Origin: a virus
Strand: one strand, 5' to 3'
IMG/VR virus record: IMGVR_UViG_3300023184_000159
Location: 1 to 55,903 of that record
Length of the DNA: 55,903 nt
Below the pieces are notes generated by a model. It was not told the origin of the DNA and ran no database searches. It was given only the letters and a program-made list of their open reading frames with translations. Below are positions 10,161 through 34,870 of this stretch, piece after piece. Position 1 is the stretch's first letter. Each line of letters opens with the position of its first letter. The position numbers and the translations under genes were made by a program.

Positions 10161-12461
10161 ATGGGAGAAGAAACAAGATCGCATAGTGGTGGGCCTAATT
10201 CAAAACAATCATCTCCTGGCCCGTTTCTTGCCGAGGTAACAAATCACCTTGATGGTACATATATGGGTATGTTAGAAGTTGCAATAATAGGAGGCATGCC
10301 TAACAATCCTAAAGTACAAGAAGAAACACATGTTGTTAGATATCTAAGTCCGTTTTCAGGATTTACCTCATCGAGATTTGAAGGAAACAACAGTAGTGAT
10401 TTTAATGATGTACAAAAAAGTTATGGTTTCTGGATGATACCGCCGGATGTTGGTACTAAAGTTATGGTTATCTTTGTTGATGGCGACCGTAATCAAGGAT
10501 TCTATATGGGCTGTGTGTCAGATGTATTTCAAAATCACATGATACCAGGAATAGCTGCTAGTAAGCAGGTAAAAATGACCGATGAACAACGCAGAAAATA
10601 TGGAACAGATTATTTACCCGTAGCAGAATTTCATAGAAAATCTCAAGATTTAAAAAATCCAGTACCTCAAAAATGGGCAAAACCCATTCATCCATTTGCT
10701 GATAGATTATTGCAACAGGGATTATTATTAGACACCATACGGGGAGTTACATCTAGTGGTGCTCGTAGAGAAGTTCCTAGTAGTGTATTTGGTATATCAA
10801 CACCCGGTCCATTGGACACCAGTCCGGGTGCTAAACGGGCCAATATAGGATATGATAGCGGAACTGCTGCTCCTGTAAGTAGACTTGGTGGTACAACTTT
10901 TGTTATGGATGATGGTGATATTAATGGACAAAATGAATTAGTTAGGTTGCGTACAAGAACAGGTCATCAAATCCTTATGCACAATAGTCAAGATTTAATT
11001 TATATTGCTAATAGTCAAGGTACCACATGGATTGAATTAACGTCTAATGGTAAAATTGATATATATGCTCAGGATTCTGTAAGTATACATTCCGAAAATG
11101 ATTTTAACTTTCTTGCCGATAGAGATATTAATATTGAAGCAGGCCGCAATATTCATATCAAAGCAGGTAAGAACATGGAAACAAATATTACAGGTTATAA
11201 TTATCTCACTGTAGATAAAGATCAAAAGATTGCAGTTAGAGGAACACATGACGAAACTATTGGTGACACTGTTAAAATTACAGTAGGTAATAGTTATAAT
11301 TTAAGTTCATCAAAAGATATTAAACAATCTGCAGAAGGTACAATTAATTTAAAATCAAATGGTAATATTAATTTAGGTACACAGGCACAACTAAATTTAG
11401 GAGCAGCTGGTAACATTATAGGAACTGGTGCAAACATACATTGGAACGGTCCAACGGCTGGATCACCAGCCTCTGCTGATGCTGCTGAAGTTCCCCCTGA
11501 TTTGCCGTTGTTTAGTTTACCTCAAAGATTAGTGAGTTGGGGATGGAGCAATGGGAAATTTTATAATACAGGAACAATTAAAACTATCATGCAACGTGCT
11601 CCAACACACGAACCGTGGCCTCAGCATGAGAATATAAATCCTCCGCAATTTAGCTCAGCGGCTACCGATATAACATTAGCAGATAGAACAGCATCTGGTA
11701 TTCCTCCTAATCCTGCTGCTGCCAAGCAAGAGCCTGCAAACCCACCTGATGTAACTCCAGGAACATGCACTCCTGAGTTTTCTAAAGATATTAATGCAAG
11801 TTCTTCTCAAGATGGTATTAGTGCTATTAAGGCAGCTTGTGCAAAATTCGGCCTTACTACACCAATTGCGGTAGCATCGTTATTAGGTATTGCCGGCGGC
11901 GAATGTCGTTGGAAGTTAGTTGAAGAAGGATTTAAATATTCTGCTGATAGATTGTTACAAGTATTTCCTAGTGTGTTTAAAGGTGATACAGCACTGGCAC
12001 AACAATATGCTGGCAATCCAAATAATACATTACCTGAATTCTTATATGGTTATAACACCGGTAAAGGTAAAGGTTTAGGCAATACACAAGAAGGTGACGG
12101 TGGAAAATATATAGGTAGAGGATATATTCAATTAACTGGAAGAAGCAATTATGCAAGATACGGAACAATGATCGGCCAGGATCTACTTGGAAATCCTCAA
12201 CTATTAAACACTCCGGCAATTGCTGCCGAAGTTGCCGTTAAGTATATGTTAGATAGATGTAAAGTAGCCCAATCGGATCCGGGTTATTTTGAAGCAGCAT
12301 GTAAAGCAATTGGATTTAATACACCAGATATCCATACTCGTAAGAAAGGATATTACGAATGCTTCTTAGGACAATTAAAAGGAAGTACATTAAGCTCGGG
12401 TAATAATGGTATAGTTACTGATAGCAGTGGTAAGCCAATTAAGACTGGTTCTGGTAGTTAA
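10161..12461 (+). CDS. 5: gp5-like baseplate spike with C-terminal GH19-type lysozyme domain
   Basis: This 766-residue protein combines an N-terminal OB-fold-like hub segment (about residues 15-130, FWMIPPDVGTKVMVIFVDGD), a repeat-rich beta-helix (about 277-420, with INIEAGRNIHIKAGKN repeats), a Pro/Ala linker, and a hydrolase domain (about 550-745). The hydrolase shows GH19 chitinase/lysozyme features: GGECRW (first catalytic acid, about E580), YSADRLLQVFPSVF, and EGDGGKYIGRGYIQLTGR with the second acid. In T4 gp5 the lysozyme is GH24-like and sits before the beta-helix; here it is of another fold and at the far C-terminus. Its job would be local peptidoglycan cleavage during DNA injection. 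It starts one base after the hub gene. Confidence 0.85.
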   Translation: MGEETRSHSGGPNSKQSSPGPFLAEVTNHLDGTYMGMLEVAIIGGMPNNPKVQEETHVVRYLSPFSGFTSSRFEGNNSSDFNDVQKSYGFWMIPPDVGTKVMVIFVDGDRNQGFYMGCVSDVFQNHMIPGIAASKQVKMTDEQRRKYGTDYLPVAEFHRKSQDLKNPVPQKWAKPIHPFADRLLQQGLLLDTIRGVTSSGARREVPSSVFGISTPGPLDTSPGAKRANIGYDSGTAAPVSRLGGTTFVMDDGDINGQNELVRLRTRTGHQILMHNSQDLIYIANSQGTTWIELTSNGKIDIYAQDSVSIHSENDFNFLADRDINIEAGRNIHIKAGKNMETNITGYNYLTVDKDQKIAVRGTHDETIGDTVKITVGNSYNLSSSKDIKQSAEGTINLKSNGNINLGTQAQLNLGAAGNIIGTGANIHWNGPTAGSPASADAAEVPPDLPLFSLPQRLVSWGWSNGKFYNTGTIKTIMQRAPTHEPWPQHENINPPQFSSAATDITLADRTASGIPPNPAAAKQEPANPPDVTPGTCTPEFSKDINASSSQDGISAIKAACAKFGLTTPIAVASLLGIAGGECRWKLVEEGFKYSADRLLQVFPSVFKGDTALAQQYAGNPNNTLPEFLYGYNTGKGKGLGNTQEGDGGKYIGRGYIQLTGRSNYARYGTMIGQDLLGNPQLLNTPAIAAEVAVKYMLDRCKVAQSDPGYFEAACKAIGFNTPDIHTRKKGYYECFLGQLKGSTLSSGNNGIVTDSSGKPIKTGSGS

Positions 12462-12951: not shown

Positions 12952-15900
12952 ATGATACCATCAACAAACACAAAATTACTAGTCAGCGAAGATTGGACTA
13001 AGATTTATCAATCTTTCCGTAATGCCGACTTCAAGAGTTACGACTTTGAAACACTTCGTCGTACAATGATTTCTTATCTTCAAGAAAAATATCCTGAAGA
13101 ATTCAATGATTATATTGACAGCAGTGAATACATTGCACTTATTGATGTTATTGCGTATCTAGGGCAGAATTTAAGTTTTCGTATTGATTTAAATGCAAGA
13201 GAAAACTTTCTCGAAACAGCACAACGTAGAGATAGTATTCTACGTCTTGCCCAATTAATTAGTTATAATCCTACAAGGAATGTTCCTGCTAGTGGTTTTT
13301 TAAAACTTACTGCCGTGGCCACTACTGATAGCGTATACGATTCTAATGGAACAAATTTATCAGATATAACAATTGGATGGAATGATGCCACAAATCCAGA
13401 TTGGTATCAACAATTTATTAATATTATGAATTCTGCAATGTCTAGTAATTTTGGCACCCCTGCAGATCGTTCCACAATTGATTCTATACTTACTGAAAAA
13501 TACAGAATTAAAAGTTCTACTCAGGATGTTCCTGTTTTTAGTTTTTCTAAAAATATAAACGGAACATCAATGAGTTTTGAAGTTGTCCCTATTGCTTTTT
13601 CTGATGATAAAACTTATGTTGAAGAAGCACCACCGGAGCCAGCAGCTCTTTTTAGTCTAATATATAAAAATGACAATCAAGGAAGTAGTAGTCCTAATAC
13701 TGGTTTTTTTGCTCATTTTAAACAAGGAACAATAAATGTTTCAAACTTTGGCATTAGCAATCCTGTAATTAATGAAATTATAGGAATTAATGCTCCTAAT
13801 ATTAATGATACCGATACCTGGTTATGGCAATTAGATCAAACTGGGAAGTATTCAACTTTATGGACACACGTTTCTTCATTGGTAGGAAATAATGTAATAT
13901 ATAATAGTATTAATAAAAGTATAAGAACATTATATGCTATCGGCAGCCGTGATCAAGATCAAATTGATTTAAATTTTGCAGATGGTGTATTTGGTGATTT
14001 GCCAAAAGGAAATTTTTCTTTCTTTTACAGACAGAGCAACGGATTACAATATGTTATCAAACCCGAACAAATGAGCGGAGTTTCTGTAACAATACCTTAT
14101 AAAAATGCTTCTGGACAAAATCATTCATTAACAATGACGTTGAGTCTGCAATATGCAGTTACAAATAGTGCAGGTGCAGAATCTAATTTAAGTATACAAA
14201 CTAAAGCCCCGCAACTTTATTATACACAGAATAGAATGATTACGGGAGAAGACTATAATATTGCTCCATTAAAAGCTGGTGCTGACATTCTTAAAATTAA
14301 AAGTGTTAATCGTGTATCAAGTGGACTTAGCAAATATATTGATTTATCAGATGTTACAGGAAAGTATAGTCATACTAATATATTTGCCAATGATGGAATA
14401 TTGTATAAAGAAGAATATACAAACATATTTGAATTTGAATTTACTAATAGAAATCAAGTATTATCTGTTTTAAAAAATAAAATAGCACCTATAATTGCTT
14501 CACCTGACTTACGGTCATTTTATATAGATAACTATTATAGAATTAATTTATTGTCATTAAAATGGAAAGAGATTAATTCCCTGCCTAATGAAAGTAGAGG
14601 ATATTTATATAATGGATCAACTGCGTATTCAGTTGGTGGATCAGGTATATTAGGATATGTTACAATTGGTGCAATGATTAAATTTGTACCACCTGACAAC
14701 TACTATTTTGATCAAAAAAATTCTCTAAAAATTATTCCAAGTTTGGGTACTCCTAACGGCGGCCGTCCTTATATTTGGGCCACTGTTAAGAAAATTGTAG
14801 GCGACGGTGCAAACTACGGCCTAGGAACATTATCCGATGGCACCGGTCCTATAATTTTTTCAACTAAAGTACCTGATGGATGTACACCAAGTGAAATTAT
14901 TCCTAAATTTAATAGAATATTGAGTTATTCTATTGAAAATGAAATTGCAAATATTGCTATCACCAAGAAAAACTTTGGTCTTACTATTGATACTACTACT
15001 AGAGAATGGAATATAATAGTTAATTCTAATTTAGATATTGTTAATACATTTAGTTTGGCCAATCAAAATAATATAGAAAATCAAGGGTTTGATGCAAGCT
15101 GGTTAATTTCTTTTGTATGGACAGGTAAAAATTACAAAGTAACTTACAGATCATTAAATTATATATTTGAAAGTCAATTAGAAACAGCATTTTTTATTGA
15201 TGATTCTACTATTAATTACGATTTTACTACAAACACAGTTATTAAAGATAAAATAACTGTTCTCTCTATAAATGCTACTCCTGCAATAACATCTGTACCA
15301 TGGTTAGGCCACGATCATCTATGGCAAATTGATAGTGCGTTTGTAGAACCCGATGGATACGTTGAACCTAAAAAAGTAAAAGTTAGTTTTTATGATTATA
15401 ATAATTTAGGTCAATTATTTGATCCAGATTCTTTTAATACAATTGTGGGTAATGATAAGTTTATATATTTCAAAAAAAATAACGACGGCACACGATATGT
15501 TTTAACTGATGATATTATTATGCCTTTTAATACCGAGGCTGATTTCTTTTCATATAAGAATGCACATACAGTTATGGATGGTGATTTATTTTATTTCTAT
15601 AATACCTCGTTAAATTTAGTAAAGTATTGGTCTTCGGTATATCAACGATTAATTTATACCGATCAATATTTTGGTAGAAGAGGCCGTGCCGATATAAAAT
15701 TTCATTATCAACATAATAGTGGAAATGAAAGAAGAATTGATCCTAGCAAATCAAATATTATTGATATCTATGTATTAACCACAACATATAATAATGATAT
15801 TAGAAGTTGGTTGTTGGGAAATATATCTTCCAAACCACCTGCACCTACTAGTCAAAGTTTAGAACAAAATTATATAGAATCATTATCTCCTATCAAGGCA

Positions 15901-16332
15901 ATCAGCGATGAAATAGTATTTCATTCTGTAGTCTATAAAATATTATTTGGGTCTGATGCTGTATCTAATTTGCAGGCAAAATTTAAAGCAGTTAAAAATC
16001 CCAATAATACCACAACTGACAATGATTTAAAAACTAGAATACTATCTGCTATTAATGATTTCTTTTCTTTAGAAAATTGGGAATTTGGACAAAGTTTTCA
16101 CTTTGGAGAGCTATCAACTTATGTAATGAATTTGCTTACGCCCGACATTACAAATTTTGTTATTGTTCCAATTACTAGTAATAGTGCATTTGGAAGTTTA
16201 TACGAAGTAACATGTTTATCAAACGAATTGTTTATTAGTGGTGCAAAAATTAATGATATTGAAATTATTGATGCCATTACGGCCTCACAATTAAAATCGT
16301 CCTCATCAATAGTAACAACCAGCGGAACATAA
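12952..16332 (+). CDS. 6: gp6-like baseplate wedge protein
   Basis: The first ~110 residues match the gp6/baseplate-J family: FETLRRTMISYLQEKYPEEF, then SSEYIALIDVIAYLGQNLSF and NARENFLETAQRRDSI with LISYNPTRNVPASG. gp6 dimers form the inner iris of the contractile baseplate that opens on infection. The protein has 1126 residues against 660 in T4, and the extra length is in the middle and C-terminal beta-rich parts. A C-terminal helical segment (NDFFSLENWEFGQSFHFGEL) resembles the J-type closing domain. It is followed after one base by the gp7-like giant, the same gene order as in T4-like phages. Confidence 0.9.
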   Translation: MIPSTNTKLLVSEDWTKIYQSFRNADFKSYDFETLRRTMISYLQEKYPEEFNDYIDSSEYIALIDVIAYLGQNLSFRIDLNARENFLETAQRRDSILRLAQLISYNPTRNVPASGFLKLTAVATTDSVYDSNGTNLSDITIGWNDATNPDWYQQFINIMNSAMSSNFGTPADRSTIDSILTEKYRIKSSTQDVPVFSFSKNINGTSMSFEVVPIAFSDDKTYVEEAPPEPAALFSLIYKNDNQGSSSPNTGFFAHFKQGTINVSNFGISNPVINEIIGINAPNINDTDTWLWQLDQTGKYSTLWTHVSSLVGNNVIYNSINKSIRTLYAIGSRDQDQIDLNFADGVFGDLPKGNFSFFYRQSNGLQYVIKPEQMSGVSVTIPYKNASGQNHSLTMTLSLQYAVTNSAGAESNLSIQTKAPQLYYTQNRMITGEDYNIAPLKAGADILKIKSVNRVSSGLSKYIDLSDVTGKYSHTNIFANDGILYKEEYTNIFEFEFTNRNQVLSVLKNKIAPIIASPDLRSFYIDNYYRINLLSLKWKEINSLPNESRGYLYNGSTAYSVGGSGILGYVTIGAMIKFVPPDNYYFDQKNSLKIIPSLGTPNGGRPYIWATVKKIVGDGANYGLGTLSDGTGPIIFSTKVPDGCTPSEIIPKFNRILSYSIENEIANIAITKKNFGLTIDTTTREWNIIVNSNLDIVNTFSLANQNNIENQGFDASWLISFVWTGKNYKVTYRSLNYIFESQLETAFFIDDSTINYDFTTNTVIKDKITVLSINATPAITSVPWLGHDHLWQIDSAFVEPDGYVEPKKVKVSFYDYNNLGQLFDPDSFNTIVGNDKFIYFKKNNDGTRYVLTDDIIMPFNTEADFFSYKNAHTVMDGDLFYFYNTSLNLVKYWSSVYQRLIYTDQYFGRRGRADIKFHYQHNSGNERRIDPSKSNIIDIYVLTTTYNNDIRSWLLGNISSKPPAPTSQSLEQNYIESLSPIKAISDEIVFHSVVYKILFGSDAVSNLQAKFKAVKNPNNTTTDNDLKTRILSAINDFFSLENWEFGQSFHFGELSTYVMNLLTPDITNFVIVPITSNSAFGSLYEVTCLSNELFISGAKINDIEIIDAITASQLKSSSSIVTTSGT

Positions 16333-16333
16333 A

Positions 16334-19300
16334 ATGGCGACTAACAAAAAATCAGTTAATTTCTTACCAGACTATTTAAAGTCAGATAAAAATTCTAAAT
16401 TTTTAGCCGGAACAATAGATCCATTAATTCAATCTCCTGAATTAGAACGAATTGATGGATTTGTTGGATCAATAATAACTCCAAATTTTAATCCTATTAC
16501 GGATTCTTATATTAAAGAAGATTCGGAGTTAAGATCAAACTATTCTCTCGAACCTGCCTTAGTTTTTAGAGACAAATCTTCCAATATTACCGATGTAGTT
16601 GCATTTGACGACATCATTAATGAAATTGGAATTCAGGGAGGTAAAGTTGATAATCTTGATAGATTATTTAGATCTAAATTTTATTCATATGATCCTTATA
16701 TTGATTGGGATAAGTTAGTAAATTATTCACAATACTATTGGTTATCTACCGGGCCTGATTCTATATTAATTGATGGTGATATTAATATTAATGACAGCAT
16801 TATTGGAAACTCTTCATATGTAATGCCCAATGGGTATGCTTTATCAAATGGTATGAAATTAAAATTTTCAACAACCGTATTACCTGAATTATATAGAGAT
16901 AAAGAATTTTATGTTGAGGGGGTTGGTAACAGTATTAAATTAATTGACATAAAATTATTAGATGTAAATGAACTATCAAATATAGTATATAACGAAACAT
17001 TTGATAGTGATAAATTTGATACATTTCCATTTGATGGTGATAAAAAATTACCATTAATTCCTGAATATGTTACAATTAATAGAGCCAGCTTAGATTTAAA
17101 TCCATGGACAAGATACAATCGTTGGTTTCATTCAGAAATAATTCGTATAACAGCAGAAATTAATAATCAACCATTTTTATTACCTTTAGAAGCTAGAGCA
17201 TTAAGACCTATTATTGAATTTAAACCTAACATACAATTATACAACTTTGGAAATAAAGGAATTGGTAGAATTTCTGTAATTGATACAGATACAACAGATG
17301 CATTTTCATCTGTAGATGGTACAATAGGATATTATGTTGACGGTGTATTGCTAGAAGAAGGCACCACTGTTATATTCAATGCCGATGTCCATGATAATGT
17401 TCGAGGAAAAATTTATACCGTAGAATATGATACATCTACAAAACCTTATATTCTTAGATTAATAGAATCAGTTACGCCTAATCTTTTAGAATCTATTGCT
17501 ATTAATTATGGTACATCTTATCAAGGAACCACCTGGCATTATAGCAGTTATGTTAATAACAATGGTGAAATTAAGAACCTATGGGTTAAATCTCAAGAAC
17601 ATAAAAAAATAAACCAATCACCTTTATTTGATTTATTTGATCATGATAACATTAGTTATACTGATAAAAATTCTAATTTTGTAGGATCTAAAATCTTTGG
17701 ATATGATATTGGGACAGGAACATCTGATAACATTTTAGGATTTCCTTTAAAATATAAAAACAGTGTAGGAGTTGGTAGTTATCTTTTCAAGAATTATTTC
17801 ATGACAGATACTATTGAGGTTATTACAGACGGTGTAAGTTCAATTATTTCTACTGGAGTTACATATTTTAAATTATTTAATACCTTAACATTAACCAATG
17901 TATGGAGTCTATTAACGGATTATCAAATTCCAATAATAGAAACACAAACAATATTAACAGCCACAAATACTGCATCTATATTATCAATTACATCAACCTC
18001 TGATATTTCTGTAATTGCATCAATTAATTCTGTTTTAACAACTGCTACATTATCAACTTCTACTCTAACACTTACATTTAATAAAACTCTCAATGTCAAC
18101 GATGTGCTATTGTTAAAGATCACATCTGATCAAATACCTAACAGTAATGGACATTACGATACTCCAATTAGCCTTACAAATAATCCATTAAATGGAAATA
18201 TATCTACTTTTACATTAAGTGAACTTAGCGATCATTTGTATACTATGATTAGCCGTATTAACACTTTTTCAGGATCTTTTCCTGGATTAAGTAATTTAAG
18301 AGATGTAAATGATTATTCAAAGTATGGAACCAGATTAATTATTAATGCTAACCCTATTGTTTTTGCACAAATATTTCTTGGCAAAAAAAATCATAATGTA
18401 GTTGATGCTATAAGACATGTTGGCGATCAATACAATCAATTCAAAATGAATTTGTTAACAGCTATGGACTTAGTTGATAGTCAATTATCGCCCGCCGACG
18501 CACTTGATAAAATTTTAATAGATATTAACAGTAATAAAGAATTGCATTCTTCATATTACAGATCTGATATGTTAGGATATGGATCTAATAAAATTAAAAG
18601 AACATATACAGTATCTAATCCTAACAATACACATTATCCAATTGGATTAGATTTTGATTTAACAACATTAAGTTTTAAATCTGTATTAATATATGTTAAT
18701 GATATACAACTAGTTAACGGAATAGATTATAGTTTTTTAATTGACGAGGTAATAATTTCTAAATTATTATCAGTTGGTGATATTATAGAAATATATTATT
18801 ATCCAGATACAATTGGTTCATTTGTACCGTCCACTCCAAGCAAGTTAGGGTTATATCCTGCATATCCTCCTAGTATATATAATGATGATTCATATTTAAG
18901 TTCTAATGTTGTAGTTATAAGAGGGCATGACGGCAGTATTATGCAATCATACGGAGACTATAGAGATGACATTGTACTTGAATACGAAAAAAGAATTTTT
19001 AATAATATAAAAGTTAAATATGATCCAACAATATTTGATATTAATTCTACAATTCCTGGAGTGTTCAGTAAAAACTCATATTTGTTATCAGATGTAAATG
19101 ATATATTAATAAAAGATTTTACCAAATGGGCCGGTGTATATAATATAGATACAACTATTAATAATATATATGATGCAGGAAATCCTTTTACATGGAACTA
19201 TACAACTGGTATCAATACTGTAACCAATACTGCTGTGCCTGGTTATTGGAGAGGTATTTACAAACAGTTTTATGATACAGACAAACCAGATACTAATCCA

Positions 19301-22300
19301 TGGGAAATGTTAGGATATATTTCTAAACCAAACTGGTGGGATACATATTACAGTTGGATTGATACAATTAAACGTAGTGCATTAATTTTAGCAATTACAA
19401 ACGGTTATACAGATGAGCCACCTTCAACAGTTGTAAATTCTAAGTATGCTCGACCTCAATTTTCTTCTATCATTCCAGTTAATAGTTTAGGCGAGTTATT
19501 AGCACCTTCTGAATTTTTAGTAAATGACGTAGGATATTATAATAAAATATCTGATTGGAAATTTGGAGATCATGGCCCAGCAGAGACTGCATGGAGAAGA
19601 AGTAGTTATTGGCCATTTGCATTAAATGCTGCTGCTGCATTACTTTATCCTTGTACATACACAACATCTATGTATGATACAAGTAGAATATCATCAAATA
19701 ATAACACAGGACAATTAACTTATTTAGAAGATGATTTATATTTAAATCCTAAAAAACTTTTAGTAGAAGGTTATAATAATGCACAAACAGCAGGATTTGG
19801 AGTCTATGTTGTTGAAAAAGGTATACAACGAAATTTAAATTATCTTGATATTTTAAAACAAGATTTAAACTATATTAATTTTAATTTATTTCATAAGATG
19901 GGTGGATTTGCTAGTAAAGATAAATTGCAGGTTGTTATTGACTCTATTGATCCGTTGTCACAAAGTCCTGGAGCAATCTTACCTCCAGAAAATTATAATT
20001 TATTATTGAATATAAGCAATCCGATTAAATCATCTAGCATTTCTGGTGTTATAATTCAAAAATTAAATAATAAATTCATCATAAAAGGATATGATGCACT
20101 TAATCCTTATTTTAATATAGTCTCACCTATTAAATTAAATTCGTCAGGTGCATTAACAATAGGAGGAAAGTCTGAAAAGTTTACAGAATGGTCTGGTGCA
20201 ATAACATCAACTGGACTAGGGGCAGTTGATATAACTGATCCAACAAATGTTACTTCACGTTATTATAAGCAAGGTCAGATTGTAAGATATAATAATAGAT
20301 ATTATCGTGTAAAAGTTGGACATGCCACACAATCTACATTTGATGTAACATTATTTTATCCGTTACCAGAGTTACCAATGGTAGGAGGAGCAACAGTACA
20401 ACTATCATCAAAATTTAATAATACAGTCATACAAATTCCATATGGTTCGCAATATTCTACAGTACAAGAAATTTACGATATATTAATAGGCTATGGTGCA
20501 TATCTTGAAAACCAGGGATTTATATTTGACGAATTTAATACTGAGCTTGATGAAGTAATGGATTGGAAATATACAGGCAAAGAATTTTTATACTGGACTA
20601 CACAAAACTGGGCAGATGGTAACTTAATTACATTAAGTCCGTTTGCAGATTATTTAAAATATTCATATAAGGATTCTATTGTTGATAATGTTTCAACAGG
20701 TGAGTATGAATATAGTTTATTAAAAGCTGACGGACAATCATTTCCTATTAATAATTTTAGACTAAGTCGAGAAGATGGCTTTTGTATCATTAATACCATA
20801 GATACATCAGAAGGTATATTTTTTGCTACTTTAAATTCTGTGCAAAAAGAGCACGGTATGTTTATTGATAACACTACAATTTTTAATGATACAATCTATG
20901 ACATTGAAACTGGATATAAGCAAAGAAGAATTAAAATAACAGGATTTAGAACAGCTGGATGGAATGGTGATTTATTAAGTCCTGGTTTTGTATATGATAA
21001 TGTTAAAATAATTGATTGGGTAGAATATGGTTCATATTTGCCAGGCACCGTTGTAATATATAATGGTACATATTATCAATCAAATGTAAAAATTCTTAAT
21101 GATAAAACTTTTGATTTTACCAAATGGAACAAATTAAATGGTAAACCTGAATCTAATTTATTACCTAACTTTGATTATAAAATAAATCAATTTGAAGATT
21201 TTTATAGTTTAGATATTGATAATTTTGATGTAGCTCAACAAAAATTAGCACAACATCTTACTGGATATACTCCACGGCAGTATCTTAATAGTATTATTAC
21301 AGATCCAATTTCACAGTATAAATTTTATCAAGGATTTATTAGAGAAAAAGGTACTAAAAATGCTATAGATAAATTATCCAAAGTTGGTAAATTTACTCGT
21401 CAGGGTGATATATCATTTGAAGAAGAGTGGGCATTTAGAGTTGGTGAGTATGGCGGTTTTTCAACTTATAATGAAATTGAATTTACTTTACAGGAAGAAT
21501 CAGAATTAGAAAATCCTTACCTTGTTAAATTTGTAAATAGTATTCCTTTGAATACAACTCCTTTAACAAATTATAAATTACCTTCTGATTTATTAATCAC
21601 CCCTAACGACTACGTATCATCATTAACATTTAATACCTATCCAAGTACATTTTCAGACACTAATTTTGAATTAACAACTGCTGGATATGTACGAGCAGAC
21701 GATGTTACTATTACTGCATACAATAAAAATAGTTTATTAGATATTGCTAATAATTCATTAATCCAAGAAGGCAACACTGTTTGGTTAGGATTTTTAGAAA
21801 ATGGAAGTTGGGACGTTTATAGATATACCAACGTATCTTCTAAGATTGCAGGAGTATATGTAAGTTCTCCAGGAGTGGATATCACATTCACAACAGACAT
21901 AAATCATAATTTATCAATAGGTGATATTGTATCTGTTGTAAGATTTAATGAGCAAGTAGACGGAATACATATTATTACAGACATTCCTAGATTAGATCAA
22001 TTTACAGTTTCATCAATATTAACTACAATTTCTAATTCTGACTTATTAAGTAATGGAATGTTATTTAAATTTGAAAAAGCTAGGTACAATGATGTTCAAG
22101 ATTTTATTAATAGCAATAATGCATCAAAGTTAAACTCTGGTGAAAAAATATGGATAGATAAAGGCACTAATGATAAATGGCAGGTATACGAAAAAATAGA
22201 AAATTATGATATTGGATATATCAATACTGCATCTATCACGACATTTGATCAACAATTTGGATATTCTATATATAGCCAAGAAAATAATAAAATATTGCTA

Positions 22301-25300
22301 ATGGCTGCTATAGGGCAATATAGTTCTACCAGATATGGAAATGTATCAGTTTATTTTAAAATTAAAAATGCATTAAGTAAAAGATTTGAATTTACTCTAA
22401 ATAGTAACAATCTCGGTTATTGTAATAATCAACTAAGCAATGAGTTTGGATATTCGTTATCGCATGACACTAATAAAGGATTATTTTTTGTCGGAGCACC
22501 CGCCGCATCAAATGTTAAACCACAATCTTTAACAAGTGGATCAGTTGTAATAGCAGATTCCAATTCTACTCCTAAAACATATATTAATGAAGGATTGGTA
22601 AAGATTAGTAGTTACGATAATGCAATTTCTGGAGAAAAAACTGAGAAAGTATTGGTAAATCCATATGGTACTGTTGGTAGTATTGCATCTCATGCAAGAT
22701 TTGGTCATTCTATATATACAAATAATGTTGATGTTAATACTAATACTACACTATTAGTTGGTGCACCTGGGGATAGTGTTAATACCTATACTGGAAAAGT
22801 TTACGCTTATAGTGTATCTAGAACAAATTATTACAAGGCTACAAAAGCCCAAGTGATATATGCTTACGCAAGTAATACGTTGGCAGAATTGTATCCATCG
22901 GAAGATACTTTATTATATTGGATGGTTACTGGATTAGAAACATTTAACCAAAAAATAATTAGTGACAGAATTGCTAATCCTTCATTAGCAGAAACTATCG
23001 ATATGGCAAGAGCAGCAGATGCAGTTGGTATTGCAGAAACTAGAGGTAATGTGGTTGCAGCATTCCAAAATCAAACCAATCCAGCTGCCCCATTATATCC
23101 TAGTGAATTGAAAATTAGATATTGGATGATTAACGGACTTGGACCAGATAATAGTACTTTTATTGCAGTAAATAATCAAGAGAGAAATTCAATAGCAGGA
23201 TATGGCGGTGATATTGATGCAGAACGTAAATTGGCAACAACAACATCTACTGTATCAGTTATTATTCATTCGTCTGGTCTTAATTTATATTCACCTAATA
23301 TTTTAAATACTGGTAGTCAGTTTGGAGATAAGATTGTAGGAAATATTACAGGTTCCTTAGTTGCAATTACTGCACCATATCATTATAGTACTATTACTAA
23401 TACTACAGGTATGGTACAATTGTTTGATATGACAAAGAGAATACCATACATTGATAATAGTGTAATAGTATCACCATTTGGAACAAACGATGTATTCGGA
23501 GATGATATTGCAATGTCGTCCAACGGAACATATATGATTGTATCGTCAATTAATGCTAGTAATTCAAATAAATCTTTTGGTAAAGTTGCAGTATATAAAT
23601 TTAAGGGTACTACTGCCACCGTACATCAAATTATAAATAACCCATTACCTCGTAGTGGAATGAAATTTGGTGTATCTATATCTATTAGTAATGATAATAA
23701 TATATTAACAATAAGTGCATTAGGTACTAATAATACAGAAACGTTAACATTTGATAAAACTTCTAAAAACGGAGAAACTGTATTTGATGGAGGAGTAACT
23801 AACTTTATCTCAAATATATCTAATTCTGGAGTTGTATATGTATATAGTAATTTAAATGATTATTTTATTCTTGCAGAAAAACTTTCAGACCCAGCAGCAA
23901 TAGCAGGAAACGGATTTGGATATTCTGTATTAGCCACAAATAATGATATATTTGTAGGTTCACCATCTATTACGACTATTTCAAGATTATTTGAATTTTA
24001 TAAAACGGATGAATCTGTTAATGGATTAAAATTACTTAGAGAACAACAAGATCTTGTTGATGTTTCAGGTATCAATAGAATAGCATTAATAGATTCATTT
24101 AAAGAAGAATTAGTTGAATACTTAGATGTAGTAGATCCATTAAAGGGAAAAATTGCAGGAATTGCCGAGCAAGAATTAAAATATAAAGCAGCATTTGACC
24201 CAGCAATATATTCAATTGGTACAGATCTATCAACAGTTGATACTGAATTAAGTTGGATTGACGATCATATTGGAGAATTATGGTGGGATTTAAGTACCGT
24301 AAAATACCAATGGTATGAGCAAGGTGATGAGATATTTAGAAAAAATAACTGGGGCAAGTTATTTCCTGGATCGACTATTGACATTTATGAATGGGTAAAA
24401 TCTGATCTACTACCGAGTGAGTGGGCTGCTCAAGCAGACACCAACGAAGGATTAACTAAAGGAATAAGTGGACAACCTAAATATCCTGATAATAGTGTTG
24501 TTTCTGTTAAACAGTTATTCAACAATGTAACAGGATCATTTGAGAATTTATATTTCTTTTGGGTAAAAAATAAAGTAACTGTTCCTAATGTTAAAAATAG
24601 AAGAATTAGTAGTTATCAAGTAGCTAGTATTATTTCTGATCCAGTTGCAAACGGTTTAAAATTTATTGAAATATTATCAGCAGATTCTTTAGCATTTGCT
24701 AATGTTCAGCCCATATTAGTTGGTAATAGAATAAATGCAAATATTGCTACTAATTTAAACAAAAATGAAATTCCTAAACATACCGAATGGATGCTAATAG
24801 CAGAAGGCAATAATAATCAAATGCCAGCACCGTTATTAGAGAAAAAATTAATTGACAGTTTATTAGGACACGATGCATTTGGTAGTGTTGTTCCTAGTAA
24901 TTTGCTAACTTATAGAAATAGATACGGAATAGGAATACGTCCTCAACAAACTTTATTTAAAGATAGAATAGAAGCATTAAGAAATCAAATTACATTTGTT
25001 AATTCTATTTTAATCAACGAAAGAATAACAGGAAATTATAATTTTAATAATCTAAATAGTTATGATCCCCAACCAGACGAATTATCTAGAGAATACGATA
25101 TAGTAGTTGGTGATTTTAATGAAATTAATAATATTATTACCTTACAGTTTGAACAAGCTTCAGTAACGTGTACTATTAATAATGGTAAAATAATATCAGT
25201 TGAAGTATCGGCATCAGGATACGGTTATAAATTTCCACCGTTGGTAACTATTATTTCAGACTCTGGTAAAGATGCTATTGTGTTAACCGAGATTGATAAT

Positions 25301-28300
25301 AAAGGACAAGTTATAAATGCAACAATATCAAATGCTGGAACTGGATATGTTGATGTTCCGTCATTAATAGTACGGCCACATACTGTTCTTGTTACTCATG
25401 ATTCAAGATATAATAATCGATGGACATCTCATCAATATAATTATAACTCTCGCAATACTACTCGTGATCCATGGATAATGTTTAAAAATCAGAAATACGA
25501 TACTCGTTCATATTGGAATAAAGTTGATTGGGTAGGTAAAAATTATAATTCTTTTAAAGATTACAAATACGTTATTGAAGGAACATATGGACTTTCTACA
25601 TTAGAAAACATTAAGGTTGGAGATTATGTAAAAGTTAATAACGTCGGTGATGGTAGATATATTATACTTGAAAAATTAGACGACTCTGTTATTGGAAATT
25701 TTTCTCCACAATATAATGTTGTTTATAGCCAAAACGGAACAATTCAAATATCTGAATCTTTATGGAAATTTTCTAATAAACATGTTGCCTATGATGACGC
25801 TACATTAGAAGAAACTTTATATGATCAAATACCTGATATAGAATTATATCGTATATTATTAGCATTAAAAGATGATATATTTGTTGGTAATCTTAAAGTT
25901 TATTGGAATAAATTCTTTTTTGCCGCAGTAAAATATGCATTAACTGAACAAAAATTATTAGACTGGGCATTTAAAACATCATTTATTAGTGTTAAAAATA
26001 CAATTGGTGAATTAGATCAAAGACCAGTATATAAATTAGATAATGAAAAATATTTTGAAGAATATGTTAAAGAGGTCAAACCATATCATACAAATATTAG
26101 AAATTATATATCAAAATATACATCATTTGAAGAAAATTCTACTTTATCATTTAGTGATTTTGATTCACCTTCTTATTATAATACTGTTACTGATAAATTT
26201 GAAGTTGTTACGCTTGCAAATACTACCTTAACAAATCAGCAACCATGGAAATCATGGGCAGACAATTATACATATTGTGTAGGTTTAATTTTTATAGCTA
26301 ATAATGGAGTTGGTTATACTCAAATACCAACAGTTACTATATCAGGTGGAGGTACAACTGTTACTTCAATTGCAACTGCCCAAGCCTATTTAAGAAATGG
26401 AAAAATTTATCAGATATTGGTAACTAATCCCGGTGCTGGATACACAAAAAATCCTGTAATTAACATATCCGGTGGAGGCCCAAATGTAACAGTAAACGCA
26501 ACGGCCTCTGCATCATTATTAAATTTGACCACTAGAAAAAATATCATAGGTTTAAGATTTGATAGAGTTTCTGCATATCCTGAAATTGGTAATATCAATG
26601 TCAATGACACTTTTATATGTTCAGGCAAACAGGATAAGTTTACATTATCCATATTGGCAGATAGAAGCAAATTAGATATTTTTCCTACTCTTGATGGAAA
26701 ATTAATATTATCAAATGATTACACAATTCAATATTATCGTGATGAAAACAAAGAATTATATTCTAGATTTGTATTTTTAAATTATATACCTATTAAAGAT
26801 CAAATATTTAAAATCTCTTATAAGAAAAGTATTGATTTATATACCGCGGCTGATAGAATAACAAAATTTAATACTTCTACTGATGCTATGTCATCATTTA
26901 TGTCAGGAGTAGAATATCCTAATAATATTATACAAGGCTTGCCATTTGAATACTCTGCATCTTGGGATAATGTTCAAAATAATGCAAAATATGATGTATC
27001 AGCATGGAGCGATATTGTAGGTTATTATGCTTCTGCAAAATTAATAAGAAACGTTCAAATAGGAACATCAACCTTATATCTTAGTACTACCACTGATATA
27101 TATCTAGGGCAAGTAATTAATATTTTAAATTCTACAACTAACCGTATACGACCAGATACCGTAGTTGTTGATATTAATACTACAGCAAGTACAATTACAA
27201 TTAGTCAACCATATTACATAATTAAAACAGTTAAATCAACTGCTACTAGTATAGGGTCAAATATTGTCATGACAACATCTAAACCATTTAATGGTGATAT
27301 TGTTTTAGGAGACACGGTAACTATAGCTGGAATAGATTATAGTCAATTTAATGGCCAGTACACTATTTCTTCTATATTAGATAATGATAAGTTTATTGTA
27401 AATGCTAAAGCTGTATTACCTACAACTGCTACAATACGTACATTTGATAATGCTAATGTTACCGTATCAACAATACCAGTAGCTATTAACACAGCATCTG
27501 TATTACTAAGTTATAGTAAAGATACATATTCAAAATCATTGGAAAACACCATAGTGGTCAATTTAATGATACCAGTTAACGAAATTGCAAGAATTAAAAT
27601 ATTTAAAGATAATGAAGCAGTAGAAATGCCTACAGGTATTCCTATCACAGGTCCTTATCCTAATAGCGAATATTATTACTTAACAGTAGATCCTATAACA
27701 AAGAATCAGATAGCAAATTTCTATCAAATGGGACATACAACGTATAAGTTGGAATTTTATGTTTACGGAAATACTAAAATTGAATTTTGGAAAACTGATA
27801 TAAATCAAGGCAATTTAGATTCAACTTTATCAGGAGGATCATGGGCATGGAATAATTCTATCGGAGGGCAAGGTGTTACCTTTACTTCAACTTCTGTTAT
27901 TTCTGGTAATACACCTATTATTATTGATGGAGATCAATTTGTAAATGAAAGATCTAGTTATTCACCAGAAGAATGTGTGAATGGACATGTATTAGATAGT
28001 TTAGGTGTTAATGTATATACCAAAGCAGAGACTTCATATCCAACAGTACTATCAGGCTCGTTTCCAGTGACCGCAGGAGTTTATACTTCTGCAACCTTAA
28101 GTGTTCCGGCAACACAATATGCAGGTATGATAGTTCATTTTAACGGAAAAATGTTTGATAGGGTAGATATTGTTGATTATGTATCTAGTTCTACACAATA
28201 TTACATGATTGGAAATACAATTTATATTAGACCACAAACGGTATCTGGTCGTATTGGCTATACAATGATAACCATAGGTGGTGATTATTCAGTACTTGAT

Positions 28301-30097
28301 AGTAATTTAATTACAGTAAAAAATGTTAATAGTGCTACAGTCATAAGTTTATTATCAAACATAATTGATGTTCATGGAGCATATGTTTTAGTCAATGGAA
28401 TACCAGTAGAAGAAATAACTCAGGAAGAAGCTGATGCAAATACTTATGGATATGTAATAGGTCCTTATAGTGATGTTAATAACAGGGCAAGCGTAACAGT
28501 TTATAATTTACCTGGATCAGCAACATATACTGTTCAAGCATGGTTCTTACAATCAAAGTATACAAACTTCAATAGAGTAAATGAAGAGATAATTACTGCA
28601 GGAACTAATCAAACAATTTTTGAACTTGCATATATTCCAGGCAATATTGAGCCAGTAAGTGCAGAAGTAATTGTTGAGATAGTTAGTAGTACAACTGGAA
28701 GAAAAAGATTGTTACCACCTTGGGTAAGTTATTATCAAGTTATCAATGGTCAATTAACATTTGCTGTGGATAATAAACATAACAGATCTCCAAGCACATA
28801 TTCACCTAATACAGTATCAGTCTATGCAAATGGTGTTAAATTACGTCCCGGTTTTGATTATACATTAGATGTGATAAACAATACCGTTACCATTGTTCAA
28901 GGACTATTAAACAACGGAGATGCTGTCGCGGTTGTTGGACTTATAGATTATGAGTATAATATAGATGGAAATCTATTAACATTAACAACTCCTGTATCTG
29001 ATGTTGATATAAAAATTACATCTTTCACAGATCACGATAATATGTTAATTAAAACTGAAAGATTTGACGGTTCATTAACTCGTCGTTTTACATTATCTTT
29101 CCCTCCATTATCAGATGATTACGTTTGGGTTTATGTTAACGGGGTTGCATTAACCGCTAGAAATGAATTTAATATATTAGATGATTCACGTACTATCGAA
29201 GTAAGTGATTTAATATCAGTTACTACAGCATCATCAATCACTATTACTACTATTAATCCTCCAGCTTTTGGTAATTATATACTCGGTTATAGAGTATTCA
29301 ATGATATGTTTAATAGAAGTCATTTTAAACGATTGTCAGCATTTCATAGTACAACATTATTAAAACCGTTAAAACACACAGATAGTGAAATTTATTTAAC
29401 AGACGGCAATGGAATAATTCCTCCTAATCCATTAATTAATAAACCGGGTATTGTTATAATCGATGGTGAACGTATTGAATTCAGTGATAAAGACGGCAAT
29501 GTATTAAGACAATTACGAAGAAGTACACTAGGAACAGGCCCTGCAACTTTTTCAAATATTGGAACCCAAGTTTTTGATCAAAGTGCTCAGCAAACAATAC
29601 CTTATACTGAAACAACATTAATACAAACAACATCTACTACTGCTACTATATATATTATTAATACTTTAACTACAACTGCAACAGGTGCTGGAATTGTGTT
29701 AAATCCATACATAGATGCAGTTAATCAAGTTACTGTATATTATGGTGGCCGTCAATTACGTAAAACATCTTTATCAGTTGCTCTTAATAAATTCTCTAAT
29801 CCAACAATTAAAATATTTGATCCAGAATTTACTATAAACACAGCTACCAACACATTAAGGTTAAATATTTCTGACTCTAATGGAATAGACACAGATATTA
29901 CTATTGTACAAAGAAAAGGATATGTATGGACTGGAACTGAATCATTATTGACCAGCAGTGTTATACAAGCACAATTCTTACGCAAGAGAAAATCAATATT
30001 ACCTGATACATATTATTATGGTGAGGATCCAGTACTCATAGATAATAATAATGAAATTATTACTGATAACAATAACACCCCTTTAGAAGGATATTAA
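16334..30097 (+). CDS. 7: Giant gp7-like baseplate wedge/virion protein (4587 aa)
   Basis: The start (KKSVNFLPDYLKSDKN, later YIDWDKLVNYSQYYW) matches the N-terminus of the very large virion proteins that follow gp6 in cyanomyoviruses, the position of T4 gp7 (1032 residues). At 4587 residues it takes a quarter of the window. The N-terminal ~1900 residues are mixed beta domains. Seven FG-GAP-type repeats lie at about 1971-2550, broken after the third by an insertion with a duplicated LYPSE/YWM/GL unit. Two blocks of GxGY/PTVTISGGG repeats lie at about 2957-3017 and 3319-3396, then further beta domains, and an Asn/Asp-rich end. It probably forms the peripheral baseplate and may contact the host surface. 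A gp7 role is inferred from order and N-terminus only. Confidence 0.75.
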   Translation: MATNKKSVNFLPDYLKSDKNSKFLAGTIDPLIQSPELERIDGFVGSIITPNFNPITDSYIKEDSELRSNYSLEPALVFRDKSSNITDVVAFDDIINEIGIQGGKVDNLDRLFRSKFYSYDPYIDWDKLVNYSQYYWLSTGPDSILIDGDININDSIIGNSSYVMPNGYALSNGMKLKFSTTVLPELYRDKEFYVEGVGNSIKLIDIKLLDVNELSNIVYNETFDSDKFDTFPFDGDKKLPLIPEYVTINRASLDLNPWTRYNRWFHSEIIRITAEINNQPFLLPLEARALRPIIEFKPNIQLYNFGNKGIGRISVIDTDTTDAFSSVDGTIGYYVDGVLLEEGTTVIFNADVHDNVRGKIYTVEYDTSTKPYILRLIESVTPNLLESIAINYGTSYQGTTWHYSSYVNNNGEIKNLWVKSQEHKKINQSPLFDLFDHDNISYTDKNSNFVGSKIFGYDIGTGTSDNILGFPLKYKNSVGVGSYLFKNYFMTDTIEVITDGVSSIISTGVTYFKLFNTLTLTNVWSLLTDYQIPIIETQTILTATNTASILSITSTSDISVIASINSVLTTATLSTSTLTLTFNKTLNVNDVLLLKITSDQIPNSNGHYDTPISLTNNPLNGNISTFTLSELSDHLYTMISRINTFSGSFPGLSNLRDVNDYSKYGTRLIINANPIVFAQIFLGKKNHNVVDAIRHVGDQYNQFKMNLLTAMDLVDSQLSPADALDKILIDINSNKELHSSYYRSDMLGYGSNKIKRTYTVSNPNNTHYPIGLDFDLTTLSFKSVLIYVNDIQLVNGIDYSFLIDEVIISKLLSVGDIIEIYYYPDTIGSFVPSTPSKLGLYPAYPPSIYNDDSYLSSNVVVIRGHDGSIMQSYGDYRDDIVLEYEKRIFNNIKVKYDPTIFDINSTIPGVFSKNSYLLSDVNDILIKDFTKWAGVYNIDTTINNIYDAGNPFTWNYTTGINTVTNTAVPGYWRGIYKQFYDTDKPDTNPWEMLGYISKPNWWDTYYSWIDTIKRSALILAITNGYTDEPPSTVVNSKYARPQFSSIIPVNSLGELLAPSEFLVNDVGYYNKISDWKFGDHGPAETAWRRSSYWPFALNAAAALLYPCTYTTSMYDTSRISSNNNTGQLTYLEDDLYLNPKKLLVEGYNNAQTAGFGVYVVEKGIQRNLNYLDILKQDLNYINFNLFHKMGGFASKDKLQVVIDSIDPLSQSPGAILPPENYNLLLNISNPIKSSSISGVIIQKLNNKFIIKGYDALNPYFNIVSPIKLNSSGALTIGGKSEKFTEWSGAITSTGLGAVDITDPTNVTSRYYKQGQIVRYNNRYYRVKVGHATQSTFDVTLFYPLPELPMVGGATVQLSSKFNNTVIQIPYGSQYSTVQEIYDILIGYGAYLENQGFIFDEFNTELDEVMDWKYTGKEFLYWTTQNWADGNLITLSPFADYLKYSYKDSIVDNVSTGEYEYSLLKADGQSFPINNFRLSREDGFCIINTIDTSEGIFFATLNSVQKEHGMFIDNTTIFNDTIYDIETGYKQRRIKITGFRTAGWNGDLLSPGFVYDNVKIIDWVEYGSYLPGTVVIYNGTYYQSNVKILNDKTFDFTKWNKLNGKPESNLLPNFDYKINQFEDFYSLDIDNFDVAQQKLAQHLTGYTPRQYLNSIITDPISQYKFYQGFIREKGTKNAIDKLSKVGKFTRQGDISFEEEWAFRVGEYGGFSTYNEIEFTLQEESELENPYLVKFVNSIPLNTTPLTNYKLPSDLLITPNDYVSSLTFNTYPSTFSDTNFELTTAGYVRADDVTITAYNKNSLLDIANNSLIQEGNTVWLGFLENGSWDVYRYTNVSSKIAGVYVSSPGVDITFTTDINHNLSIGDIVSVVRFNEQVDGIHIITDIPRLDQFTVSSILTTISNSDLLSNGMLFKFEKARYNDVQDFINSNNASKLNSGEKIWIDKGTNDKWQVYEKIENYDIGYINTASITTFDQQFGYSIYSQENNKILLMAAIGQYSSTRYGNVSVYFKIKNALSKRFEFTLNSNNLGYCNNQLSNEFGYSLSHDTNKGLFFVGAPAASNVKPQSLTSGSVVIADSNSTPKTYINEGLVKISSYDNAISGEKTEKVLVNPYGTVGSIASHARFGHSIYTNNVDVNTNTTLLVGAPGDSVNTYTGKVYAYSVSRTNYYKATKAQVIYAYASNTLAELYPSEDTLLYWMVTGLETFNQKIISDRIANPSLAETIDMARAADAVGIAETRGNVVAAFQNQTNPAAPLYPSELKIRYWMINGLGPDNSTFIAVNNQERNSIAGYGGDIDAERKLATTTSTVSVIIHSSGLNLYSPNILNTGSQFGDKIVGNITGSLVAITAPYHYSTITNTTGMVQLFDMTKRIPYIDNSVIVSPFGTNDVFGDDIAMSSNGTYMIVSSINASNSNKSFGKVAVYKFKGTTATVHQIINNPLPRSGMKFGVSISISNDNNILTISALGTNNTETLTFDKTSKNGETVFDGGVTNFISNISNSGVVYVYSNLNDYFILAEKLSDPAAIAGNGFGYSVLATNNDIFVGSPSITTISRLFEFYKTDESVNGLKLLREQQDLVDVSGINRIALIDSFKEELVEYLDVVDPLKGKIAGIAEQELKYKAAFDPAIYSIGTDLSTVDTELSWIDDHIGELWWDLSTVKYQWYEQGDEIFRKNNWGKLFPGSTIDIYEWVKSDLLPSEWAAQADTNEGLTKGISGQPKYPDNSVVSVKQLFNNVTGSFENLYFFWVKNKVTVPNVKNRRISSYQVASIISDPVANGLKFIEILSADSLAFANVQPILVGNRINANIATNLNKNEIPKHTEWMLIAEGNNNQMPAPLLEKKLIDSLLGHDAFGSVVPSNLLTYRNRYGIGIRPQQTLFKDRIEALRNQITFVNSILINERITGNYNFNNLNSYDPQPDELSREYDIVVGDFNEINNIITLQFEQASVTCTINNGKIISVEVSASGYGYKFPPLVTIISDSGKDAIVLTEIDNKGQVINATISNAGTGYVDVPSLIVRPHTVLVTHDSRYNNRWTSHQYNYNSRNTTRDPWIMFKNQKYDTRSYWNKVDWVGKNYNSFKDYKYVIEGTYGLSTLENIKVGDYVKVNNVGDGRYIILEKLDDSVIGNFSPQYNVVYSQNGTIQISESLWKFSNKHVAYDDATLEETLYDQIPDIELYRILLALKDDIFVGNLKVYWNKFFFAAVKYALTEQKLLDWAFKTSFISVKNTIGELDQRPVYKLDNEKYFEEYVKEVKPYHTNIRNYISKYTSFEENSTLSFSDFDSPSYYNTVTDKFEVVTLANTTLTNQQPWKSWADNYTYCVGLIFIANNGVGYTQIPTVTISGGGTTVTSIATAQAYLRNGKIYQILVTNPGAGYTKNPVINISGGGPNVTVNATASASLLNLTTRKNIIGLRFDRVSAYPEIGNINVNDTFICSGKQDKFTLSILADRSKLDIFPTLDGKLILSNDYTIQYYRDENKELYSRFVFLNYIPIKDQIFKISYKKSIDLYTAADRITKFNTSTDAMSSFMSGVEYPNNIIQGLPFEYSASWDNVQNNAKYDVSAWSDIVGYYASAKLIRNVQIGTSTLYLSTTTDIYLGQVINILNSTTNRIRPDTVVVDINTTASTITISQPYYIIKTVKSTATSIGSNIVMTTSKPFNGDIVLGDTVTIAGIDYSQFNGQYTISSILDNDKFIVNAKAVLPTTATIRTFDNANVTVSTIPVAINTASVLLSYSKDTYSKSLENTIVVNLMIPVNEIARIKIFKDNEAVEMPTGIPITGPYPNSEYYYLTVDPITKNQIANFYQMGHTTYKLEFYVYGNTKIEFWKTDINQGNLDSTLSGGSWAWNNSIGGQGVTFTSTSVISGNTPIIIDGDQFVNERSSYSPEECVNGHVLDSLGVNVYTKAETSYPTVLSGSFPVTAGVYTSATLSVPATQYAGMIVHFNGKMFDRVDIVDYVSSSTQYYMIGNTIYIRPQTVSGRIGYTMITIGGDYSVLDSNLITVKNVNSATVISLLSNIIDVHGAYVLVNGIPVEEITQEEADANTYGYVIGPYSDVNNRASVTVYNLPGSATYTVQAWFLQSKYTNFNRVNEEIITAGTNQTIFELAYIPGNIEPVSAEVIVEIVSSTTGRKRLLPPWVSYYQVINGQLTFAVDNKHNRSPSTYSPNTVSVYANGVKLRPGFDYTLDVINNTVTIVQGLLNNGDAVAVVGLIDYEYNIDGNLLTLTTPVSDVDIKITSFTDHDNMLIKTERFDGSLTRRFTLSFPPLSDDYVWVYVNGVALTARNEFNILDDSRTIEVSDLISVTTASSITITTINPPAFGNYILGYRVFNDMFNRSHFKRLSAFHSTTLLKPLKHTDSEIYLTDGNGIIPPNPLINKPGIVIIDGERIEFSDKDGNVLRQLRRSTLGTGPATFSNIGTQVFDQSAQQTIPYTETTLIQTTSTTATIYIINTLTTTATGAGIVLNPYIDAVNQVTVYYGGRQLRKTSLSVALNKFSNPTIKIFDPEFTINTATNTLRLNISDSNGIDTDITIVQRKGYVWTGTESLLTSSVIQAQFLRKRKSILPDTYYYGEDPVLIDNNNEIITDNNNTPLEGY
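22243..23984 (+). repeat. Seven FG-GAP-type repeats (integrin-like beta-propeller) in the gp7-like protein
   Basis: Repeats of the form FG-(D/Y)-S/I followed by a hydrophobic strand and a GAP-like turn begin near residues 1971, 2036, 2121, 2328, 2386, 2443 and 2526. Examples are FGYSLSHDTNKGLFFVGAP, FGHSIYTN with LLVGAPGDS, FGDDIAMSSNGTYMIVSS and FGYSVLATNNDIFVGSPS. Seven is the number of blades in integrin-alpha propellers. Blades are 58-85 residues apart apart from one ~207-residue gap, which holds an insertion. Confidence 0.7.
25201..26520 (+). repeat. Two blocks of GxGY / PTVTISGGG beta repeats in the gp7-like protein
   Basis: The first block covers about residues 2957-3017 (SGYGYKFPPLVTI, then NAGTGYVDVPSLIV). 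The second covers about 3319-3396 (GVGYTQIPTVTISGGG, then GAGYTKNPVINISGGG). Each block has two copies about 40-45 residues apart with a G-(K/Q)-(I/V) strand between. This short repeat recurs in marine phage virion proteins. I take it as a structural spacer; a carbohydrate-binding role is possible but unsupported. Confidence 0.6.
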
Positions 30098-31382: not shown

Positions 31383-31414
31383 TATTTAAATAAGAAATAC
31401 AACGAGAATATGGA

Positions 31415-31422
31415 TATAAATA
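31415..31422 (+). promoter_or_regulatory. T4-type late promoter TATAAATA
   Basis: An exact TATAAATA followed by CACTATC, very close to the T4 late consensus TATAAATACTATT. It is in the 61-base gap before the gene at 31444, points along the plus strand, and is 21 bases from the ATG. There is no Shine-Dalgarno sequence in the short leader it would make. Confidence 0.65.
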
Positions 31423-31443
31423 CACTATCAACTTATATAAATT

Positions 31444-32088
31444 ATGACAATTCCAACAAATAATCAACCCACTGCTCCACAGTCAAAACCCAACGAATCG
31501 GGTGCTGTAAGCATTCAAGGTCATATTAAAATCTTTGATCCTGTTACCAAAGAAGTACTTATTGATAAAAGAAATGCTATTCATTATGAGAATTTCTCTA
31601 TTGCATTAGCACAAAGTTTATCAAATAATGAAGGACCAATTGGAGAAATGGTGTTTGGCAATGGCGGATCTCGAGTAGACCCAACCGGAATTATTACCTA
31701 TTTAACACCAAACAATGTAGGCGGTAATGCTGCATTATATAATCAAACATATTATAAAACTGTTGATGCAAAACGTCCTTATTCGTTGGATCCTGCAAGA
31801 AACTTCATGGAAACCAGACATATTATAGGAACAGCATATTCAGATGTTCTTGTAAGTTGTTTATTAGACTTTGGTGAACCAAATGATCAATCTGCATTTG
31901 ATACAGGTACATCTAGCACCACTGATTATATATTTGATGAATTAGGTTTAAAATCTTATGCTGTTGCAGGACCCAACGAAGGCATGTTGTTAACTCATGT
32001 AATATTCCACCCTGTACAAAAATCTTTAAACAGGATGATTCAGGTTGACTATACTATAAGAATTCAAAGTATAAGTAGTGGAATTTAA
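31444..32088 (+). CDS. Conserved virion/baseplate structural protein
   Basis: This 214-residue protein resembles a conserved structural protein of marine T4-like phages found beside the baseplate and fibre genes. A Pro/Gln-rich N-terminus is followed by beta strands (VSIQGHIKIFDPVTKEVLID), a helix around YENFSIALAQSLS, and a loop GEMVFGNGGSRVDPTG. I have no confident T4 counterpart; gp8 or gp9 is possible by position only. An exact TATAAATA late promoter precedes it, so it heads its own late transcript including the three fibre paralogues that follow. It lacks a recognisable ribosome site. Confidence 0.6.
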   Translation: MTIPTNNQPTAPQSKPNESGAVSIQGHIKIFDPVTKEVLIDKRNAIHYENFSIALAQSLSNNEGPIGEMVFGNGGSRVDPTGIITYLTPNNVGGNAALYNQTYYKTVDAKRPYSLDPARNFMETRHIIGTAYSDVLVSCLLDFGEPNDQSAFDTGTSSTTDYIFDELGLKSYAVAGPNEGMLLTHVIFHPVQKSLNRMIQVDYTIRIQSISSGI

Positions 32089-32090
32089 TC

Positions 32091-33827: not shown

Positions 33828-33829
33828 TT

Positions 33830-34858: not shown

Positions 34859-34870
34859 AGGTTTAATTCA

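Follow-up and report, generated by a model that had tools for sequence, protein, structure and literature searches.

What would a beta-propeller of the kind found in integrins do inside a giant phage tail protein? The question is raised by an IMG/VR virus record of 55,903 bases (IMGVR_UViG_3300023184_000159; this whole stretch is called the window below), in which the tail genes lie on the + strand. An original prediction, made from the letters of the window, had placed seven FG-GAP repeats in a row at 22243-23984 within a "gp7-like" baseplate protein and had suggested an integrin-like closed propeller serving as a host-surface binding module. Our analysis reproduced the repeats and the predicted fold and leads us to favor, on balance, a role in adhesion to the host surface, as a platform on the baseplate of phages in an uncultured jumbo myovirus clade. 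The giant protein and the parts of the propeller are as follows.

16334..30097, + strand: open reading frame of the giant virion structural protein, 4587 amino acids, the scaffold carrying the propeller; gene directly after the gp6-like wedge gene
22199..24013, + strand: seven-bladed FG-GAP beta-propeller domain, residues ~1956-2560, helical insert included (FG-GAP_2, AlphaFold2, Foldseek and profile evidence)
22205..22228, + strand: putative closing strand, strand 4 of blade 7 but N-terminal, residues 1958-1965 (DSSP of the model, assigned from blade topology)
22241..22393, + strand: blade 1, FG glycine at residue 1976
22430..22657, + strand: blade 2, FG at 2039, GAP at 2054-2056
22685..22825, + strand: blade 3, strands 1-3, FG at 2124, GAP at 2143-2145
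23249..23266, + strand: blade 3, strand 4, residues 2306-2311, after the insert (DSSP of the model)
23306..23470, + strand: blade 4, FG at 2331
23480..23638, + strand: blade 5, FG at 2389, strand 3-4 hairpin at residue 2425
23651..23887, + strand: blade 6, FG at 2446
23900..24004, + strand: blade 7, strands 1-3, FG at 2529, GSP at 2542-2544

The repeats are evident at several levels. At each of the seven sites the FG glycine is kept in 57-59 of 59 relatives, almost always preceded by F, Y, W or L, and the "GAP" turn is family-wide in blades 2, 3, 4 and 7, mixed in blade 5 and drifted in blades 1 and 6. The Pfam family FG-GAP_2 (PF14312) matched with an E-value of 2e-8 and 34.7 bits, over its curated cut-off of 23, and 54 of the 59 relatives match as well. 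In a leave-one-blade-out test, each blade was omitted from the profile in turn and scored against 200 shuffles of the whole protein; all seven scored 6.6-27.6 bits compared to shuffle bests of 3.9-6.5 bits, with the smallest margins for blade 7 (6.6 versus 4.5 bits) and blade 4 (8.0 versus 5.4). With the same profiles, nothing comparable to a blade was found elsewhere in the 4587 residues. The domain as a whole runs slightly beyond both ends of the range first given, from ~22199 to 24013, and its layout includes two features that had been missed, a helical insert that splits blade 3 and, outside that range, an N-terminal strand that would close blade 7.

Structure prediction and a sequence-profile search had been named beforehand as ways of checking the propeller, and both agree with it. 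AlphaFold2, run on a 59-sequence alignment, gave a seven-bladed model with a predicted local distance difference test score (pLDDT) of 89.6 and a predicted template modeling score (pTM) of 0.86, replacing a run on 6 sequences with a pLDDT of just 69.6. The model has four strands per blade by DSSP, and residues 1958-1965, the N-terminal strand, would serve as strand 4 of blade 7, an arrangement shared with integrins. When the model was compared to the PDB with Foldseek, all 50 best-listed matches were integrin alpha heads (best E-value 3e-12), and all 43 PDB matches of the 59-sequence family profile were integrins, the best being integrin alpha-4 (E-value 4e-13). It is this profile that reaches the integrins, as a PDB search with the propeller as a single sequence gave no match. 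The domain is thus firmly predicted to be a closed seven-bladed FG-GAP propeller of the integrin-alpha-head type.

The integrin alpha head (PDB 3v4p, alpha-4; 8xek, alpha-V) likewise has seven four-stranded FG...GAP blades and an N-terminal closing strand. The phage domain differs in being embedded in a tail protein, in carrying inserts mainly in strand 3-4 hairpins, and in having no DxDxDG loops. Identity to integrins is ~10%, which indicates a shared repeat family and fold rather than close kinship. DxDxDG calcium loops were found in no blade loop, with motif-like matches in the C-terminal linker only, and the strand 1-2 loops are ~4 residues long, a length nearly fixed across the family; given the absence of these loops, an integrin-style metal-dependent mechanism is not to be assumed. 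Pfam matches to the integrin leg families (thigh and calf) were also absent from the full-length protein, and we do not class it as an integrin alpha subunit proper. The same repeat family occurs in other FG-GAP_2 proteins, including those of giant algal and amoebal viruses and some phages in BFVD, where similar folds include a separate Atu_ph07 "hemagglutinin" protein and S-TIM5 H6WG31. In contrast to these, the propeller described here is built into a conserved giant protein of the baseplate region and occurs in every sampled member of its clade.

The insert in blade 3 proved to be one of many in this family. It occupies the strand 3-4 hairpin and contains two copies of a repeat.

22820..23233, + strand: helical insert of 137 residues with eight predicted helices, residues ~2163-2300
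22841..23014, + strand: helical repeat copy 1 (TKAQVIYAYASNTLAELYPSEDTLLYWMVTGL...), 88.3 bits to the repeat profile
23039..23227, + strand: helical repeat copy 2 (TRGNVVAAFQNQTNPAAPLYPSELKIRYWMINGL...), 67.4 bits to the repeat profile

This four-helix repeat of ~60 amino acids, with the consensus TRAxVIxAYAxNxxAPLYPxExxIxYWMxxGL, is undescribed; it had no significant match in Pfam, PHROGs, the PDB or annotated phage records. Its resemblance to DUF4214 is a likeness by eye, and hhalign was not significant. Eight copies are present in loci L005 and L006, and the blade-5 hairpin in L005, L006, L022, L040 and L048 carries 2-6 helical repeats, with other inserts in other relatives. Insert hot spots are the strand 3-4 hairpins of blades 3, 4 and 5 and the loops preceding blade 7 or lying inside it, and hairpin inserts reach 432 residues in relatives. 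One, in blade 2 of L092, is a CBM_5_12 module (E-value 5e-8). The inserts are interchangeable modules plugged into blade hairpins. Some of the others look by eye like Ig-like, dockerin-like, PA14-like or DUF4214-like domains, readings that were not confirmed, with no Pfam match for the first three.

The position of the giant protein on the virion was approached through its gene neighborhood and its relatives.

10161..12461, + strand: gp5-like hub
12952..16332, + strand: gp6-like baseplate wedge gene (phrog_10646, E-value 3e-287), directly 5' of the giant gene
24026..24913, + strand: conserved module directly C-terminal of the propeller, common to propeller-less isolates and used as tree marker

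Over its scaffold the giant protein matches the profile of phrog_10938, a virion structural protein (E = 0, 1024 bits). On the + strand the gp5-like, gp6-like and giant genes are followed by collar and fiber genes (30099-36118), and the first three (10161-12461, 12952-16332 and 16334-30097) match the gp5-gp6-gp7 order of T4. A profile of the N-terminal 1740 residues, however, showed no homology to T4 gp7 (hhalign probability 0.9%), so that "gp7-like" holds as a positional label only. The N-terminal scaffold and the post-propeller module had no PDB relative beyond chance or weak chitin-binding-like matches. By wedge protein the nearest isolates are jumbo myophages, namely Atu_ph07, Phosso, SCTP-2, 121Q, RaK2 and relatives, and some IMG/VR relatives sit on contigs of more than 200 kb (for example L064, 221 kb). 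The PA5oct record marks its homologous giant protein as detected in virions by mass spectrometry, and in phAPEC6, whose genome falls in the 121Q group among the relatives found here, a 382-kDa protein, gp245, was detected in virions and is listed beside the 131-kDa baseplate wedge gp244 (PMC7247149). To judge by its matching size, gp245 probably corresponds to the 3323-residue 121Q homologue. Gene order and mass spectrometry of related virion proteins together support the placement of the giant protein in the baseplate region, as the original prediction had it. Two further features of these genes were noted, a match of giant protein residues 3252-3383 (26087-26482) to phrog_460 "head closure Hc2" (E-value 3e-13), which is odd in a baseplate-region protein, and a GH19 chitinase/lysozyme-like domain at the C-terminus of the gp5-like hub (10161-12461, + strand).

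Comparison with the isolates showed where the propeller is inserted. The phrog_10938 giant virion proteins 121Q gp582, RaK2 ORF070, PA5oct gp355 and Atu_ph07 gp180 share the scaffold and gene order but, unlike the protein described here, have no propeller at the corresponding site. Homologues from isolates can be aligned as far as residue ~1736-1870, and the alignment resumes at ~2568; between these points there are short stretches in PA5oct, 121Q and RaK2 and unrelated content in Atu_ph07, Phosso and SCTP-2. The propeller sits in a surface hairpin or loop, at a place where the otherwise conserved scaffold varies. At this same site, L011 (SCTP-2) and L193 carry what by eye resembles a LamG/jelly-roll-type lectin domain, with no Pfam match.

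The distribution of the propeller was examined by IMG/VR scans seeded on the post-propeller module. At least 182 distinct loci were gathered, window and isolates included, and 136 of the 182 have the propeller by profile; as the best 80 loci per query were taken and relatives were favored, these proportions are not abundances. In a quick, unrooted tree of the post-propeller module with 129 rows, one branch, with a Shimodaira-Hasegawa-like approximate likelihood ratio (SH-aLRT) support of 97, has on one side the 97 rows with a propeller by profile together with L161, whose divergent version still scores above the FG-GAP_2 cut-off. The propeller is present in 98 of 98 rows of this clade and absent from all 31 rows beyond it, which include every isolate (121Q, RaK2, PA5oct, Atu_ph07 and SCTP-2); one gain and one loss can be read equally well from such a tree. 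The clade, whose members are known here from metagenomes only, is called uncultured in the sense that the phage collection searched gave no match to it. A search of 50,697 annotated phage records at the DNA level did not find the propeller, and protein searches of annotated phage records with the propeller region gave matches in the downstream module only, or none.

The propeller also diverges faster than its immediate flanks. When the window is compared to its closest relatives, the ratio of nonsynonymous to synonymous substitution rates (dN/dS) is 0.30-0.38 for the propeller, 0.11-0.12 for the two adjoining modules and 0.17-0.19 for the N-terminal scaffold. Against 45 relatives, the propeller has a median identity of 0.42-0.43 and the flanking modules have 0.56-0.68.

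These observations agree best with the propeller being an adhesion platform on the baseplate, inserted in a surface hairpin of the giant protein. Copies around the baseplate would each project a disc, and the outer loops of the disc, with the small modules plugged into its hairpins, would touch host surface glycans or proteins at adsorption, in addition to the contact made by the tail fibers. The host-surface binding first suggested agrees with the faster divergence of the propeller, with the swapping of its inserts and with precedents among phage propellers, while the integrin calcium loops are absent; binding is what we infer, along with the exposure of the propeller on the virion, its copy number, its ligand type and its role in adsorption. 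Among the precedents, phiKZ gp131C (PDB 4GBF) is a seven-bladed propeller in a protein at the baseplate periphery of a jumbo phage, as here, for which receptor binding was proposed but is unproven (PMC4901313); it was not among the listed sequence matches or the 50 best fold matches, in searches that included no direct structure-to-structure comparison. The receptor-binding protein Gp45 of phi11 is also a baseplate-attached propeller, whose cavity could hold host N-acetylglucosamine (PMC4901313), but it has five blades and is a separate trimeric protein of a staphylococcal siphophage.

Several points weigh against adhesion. The C-terminal part of the giant protein is nearly as divergent as the propeller (identity 0.44-0.45 over residues 3301-4587; dN/dS 0.22-0.32 over 2861-4587), so that the propeller is not alone in diverging fast, and dN/dS stays below 0.4 throughout, as under purifying selection. 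In the propeller no ligand-binding motif was recognized, and the downstream collar and fiber genes (30099-36118) are more conventional candidates for receptor binding. Propellers, moreover, often act as plain protein-protein platforms. This last point leads to the main rival explanation, an architectural docking platform that binds and orients tail-fiber or baseplate proteins without touching the host. The presence of the propeller in every sampled clade member and its almost invariant FG core suit such a structural role, whereas divergence faster than that of the flanking scaffold does not, hairpin inserts of up to 432 residues suggest free edges, and all isolates make a baseplate without the propeller. 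We regard docking as rather unlikely, although it deserves more weight than the remaining alternatives.

A passive spacer or decoration, giving bulk to a giant tail protein with no specific interaction, would be in keeping with the tendency of giant tail proteins in phages to take up beta-rich modules, and GxGYxxxP-type beta repeats do occupy the propeller site in other lineages (L126, L207, L180, L241, L008 and L014 have such repeats). Conservation in 98 of 98 clade rows, the almost invariant core and purifying selection instead indicate a selected function, and make this explanation improbable. GxGYxxxP beta-rich repeats also recur in the giant protein itself, at residues ~2940-3040 and ~3440-3500. 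More improbable still is that the propeller or its inserts are an enzyme, a lyase or hydrolase acting on host polysaccharide from the tail. Some propellers do degrade glycans, and the structural matches of the phi11 propeller are mostly such enzymes (PMC4901313), but here the best PDB matches, both of the sequence profile and among the 50 best-listed folds, are all integrins, and no catalytic family was matched in Pfam, NCBIfam or PHROGs.

Elsewhere in the window, three regions on the - strand were noted. At 38189-39442 there is a DUF2201 putative metallopeptidase with a VWA-like domain. At 43686-46711, radical SAM-like, NAD-dependent epimerase/GDP-mannose dehydratase and glycosyltransferase-like genes are clustered in a small sugar-modification cassette. 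The 518-residue protein at 47855-49411 resembles by eye a tRNA-guanine transglycosylase/DpdA-type protein, with no Pfam or NCBIfam match and a non-significant PHROG match.

Integrins and giant viruses are known to have FG-GAP propellers, and some phages have them as separate proteins; a search of the available literature for FG-GAP together with phage and baseplate, or with jumbo phage, found no paper. What is new here is a clade-wide propeller with plug-in modules inside a giant baseplate-region protein. Tentatively, this would give the uncultured jumbo clade a distinct host-recognition architecture, in which an integrin-head propeller in the baseplate scaffold may act like a pegboard that holds exchangeable modules for adhesion, among them the undescribed four-helix repeat in two to eight copies. 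Should the propeller bind hosts, this would explain the adsorption of a widespread uncultured jumbo-phage clade, and the hairpin inserts would become candidate predictors of host range. The integrin-head fold within the baseplate scaffold of these phages is one clade-defining difference from the cultured relatives, and its role can therefore be tested once isolates with the propeller are available, by setting them against the cultured phages that lack it.

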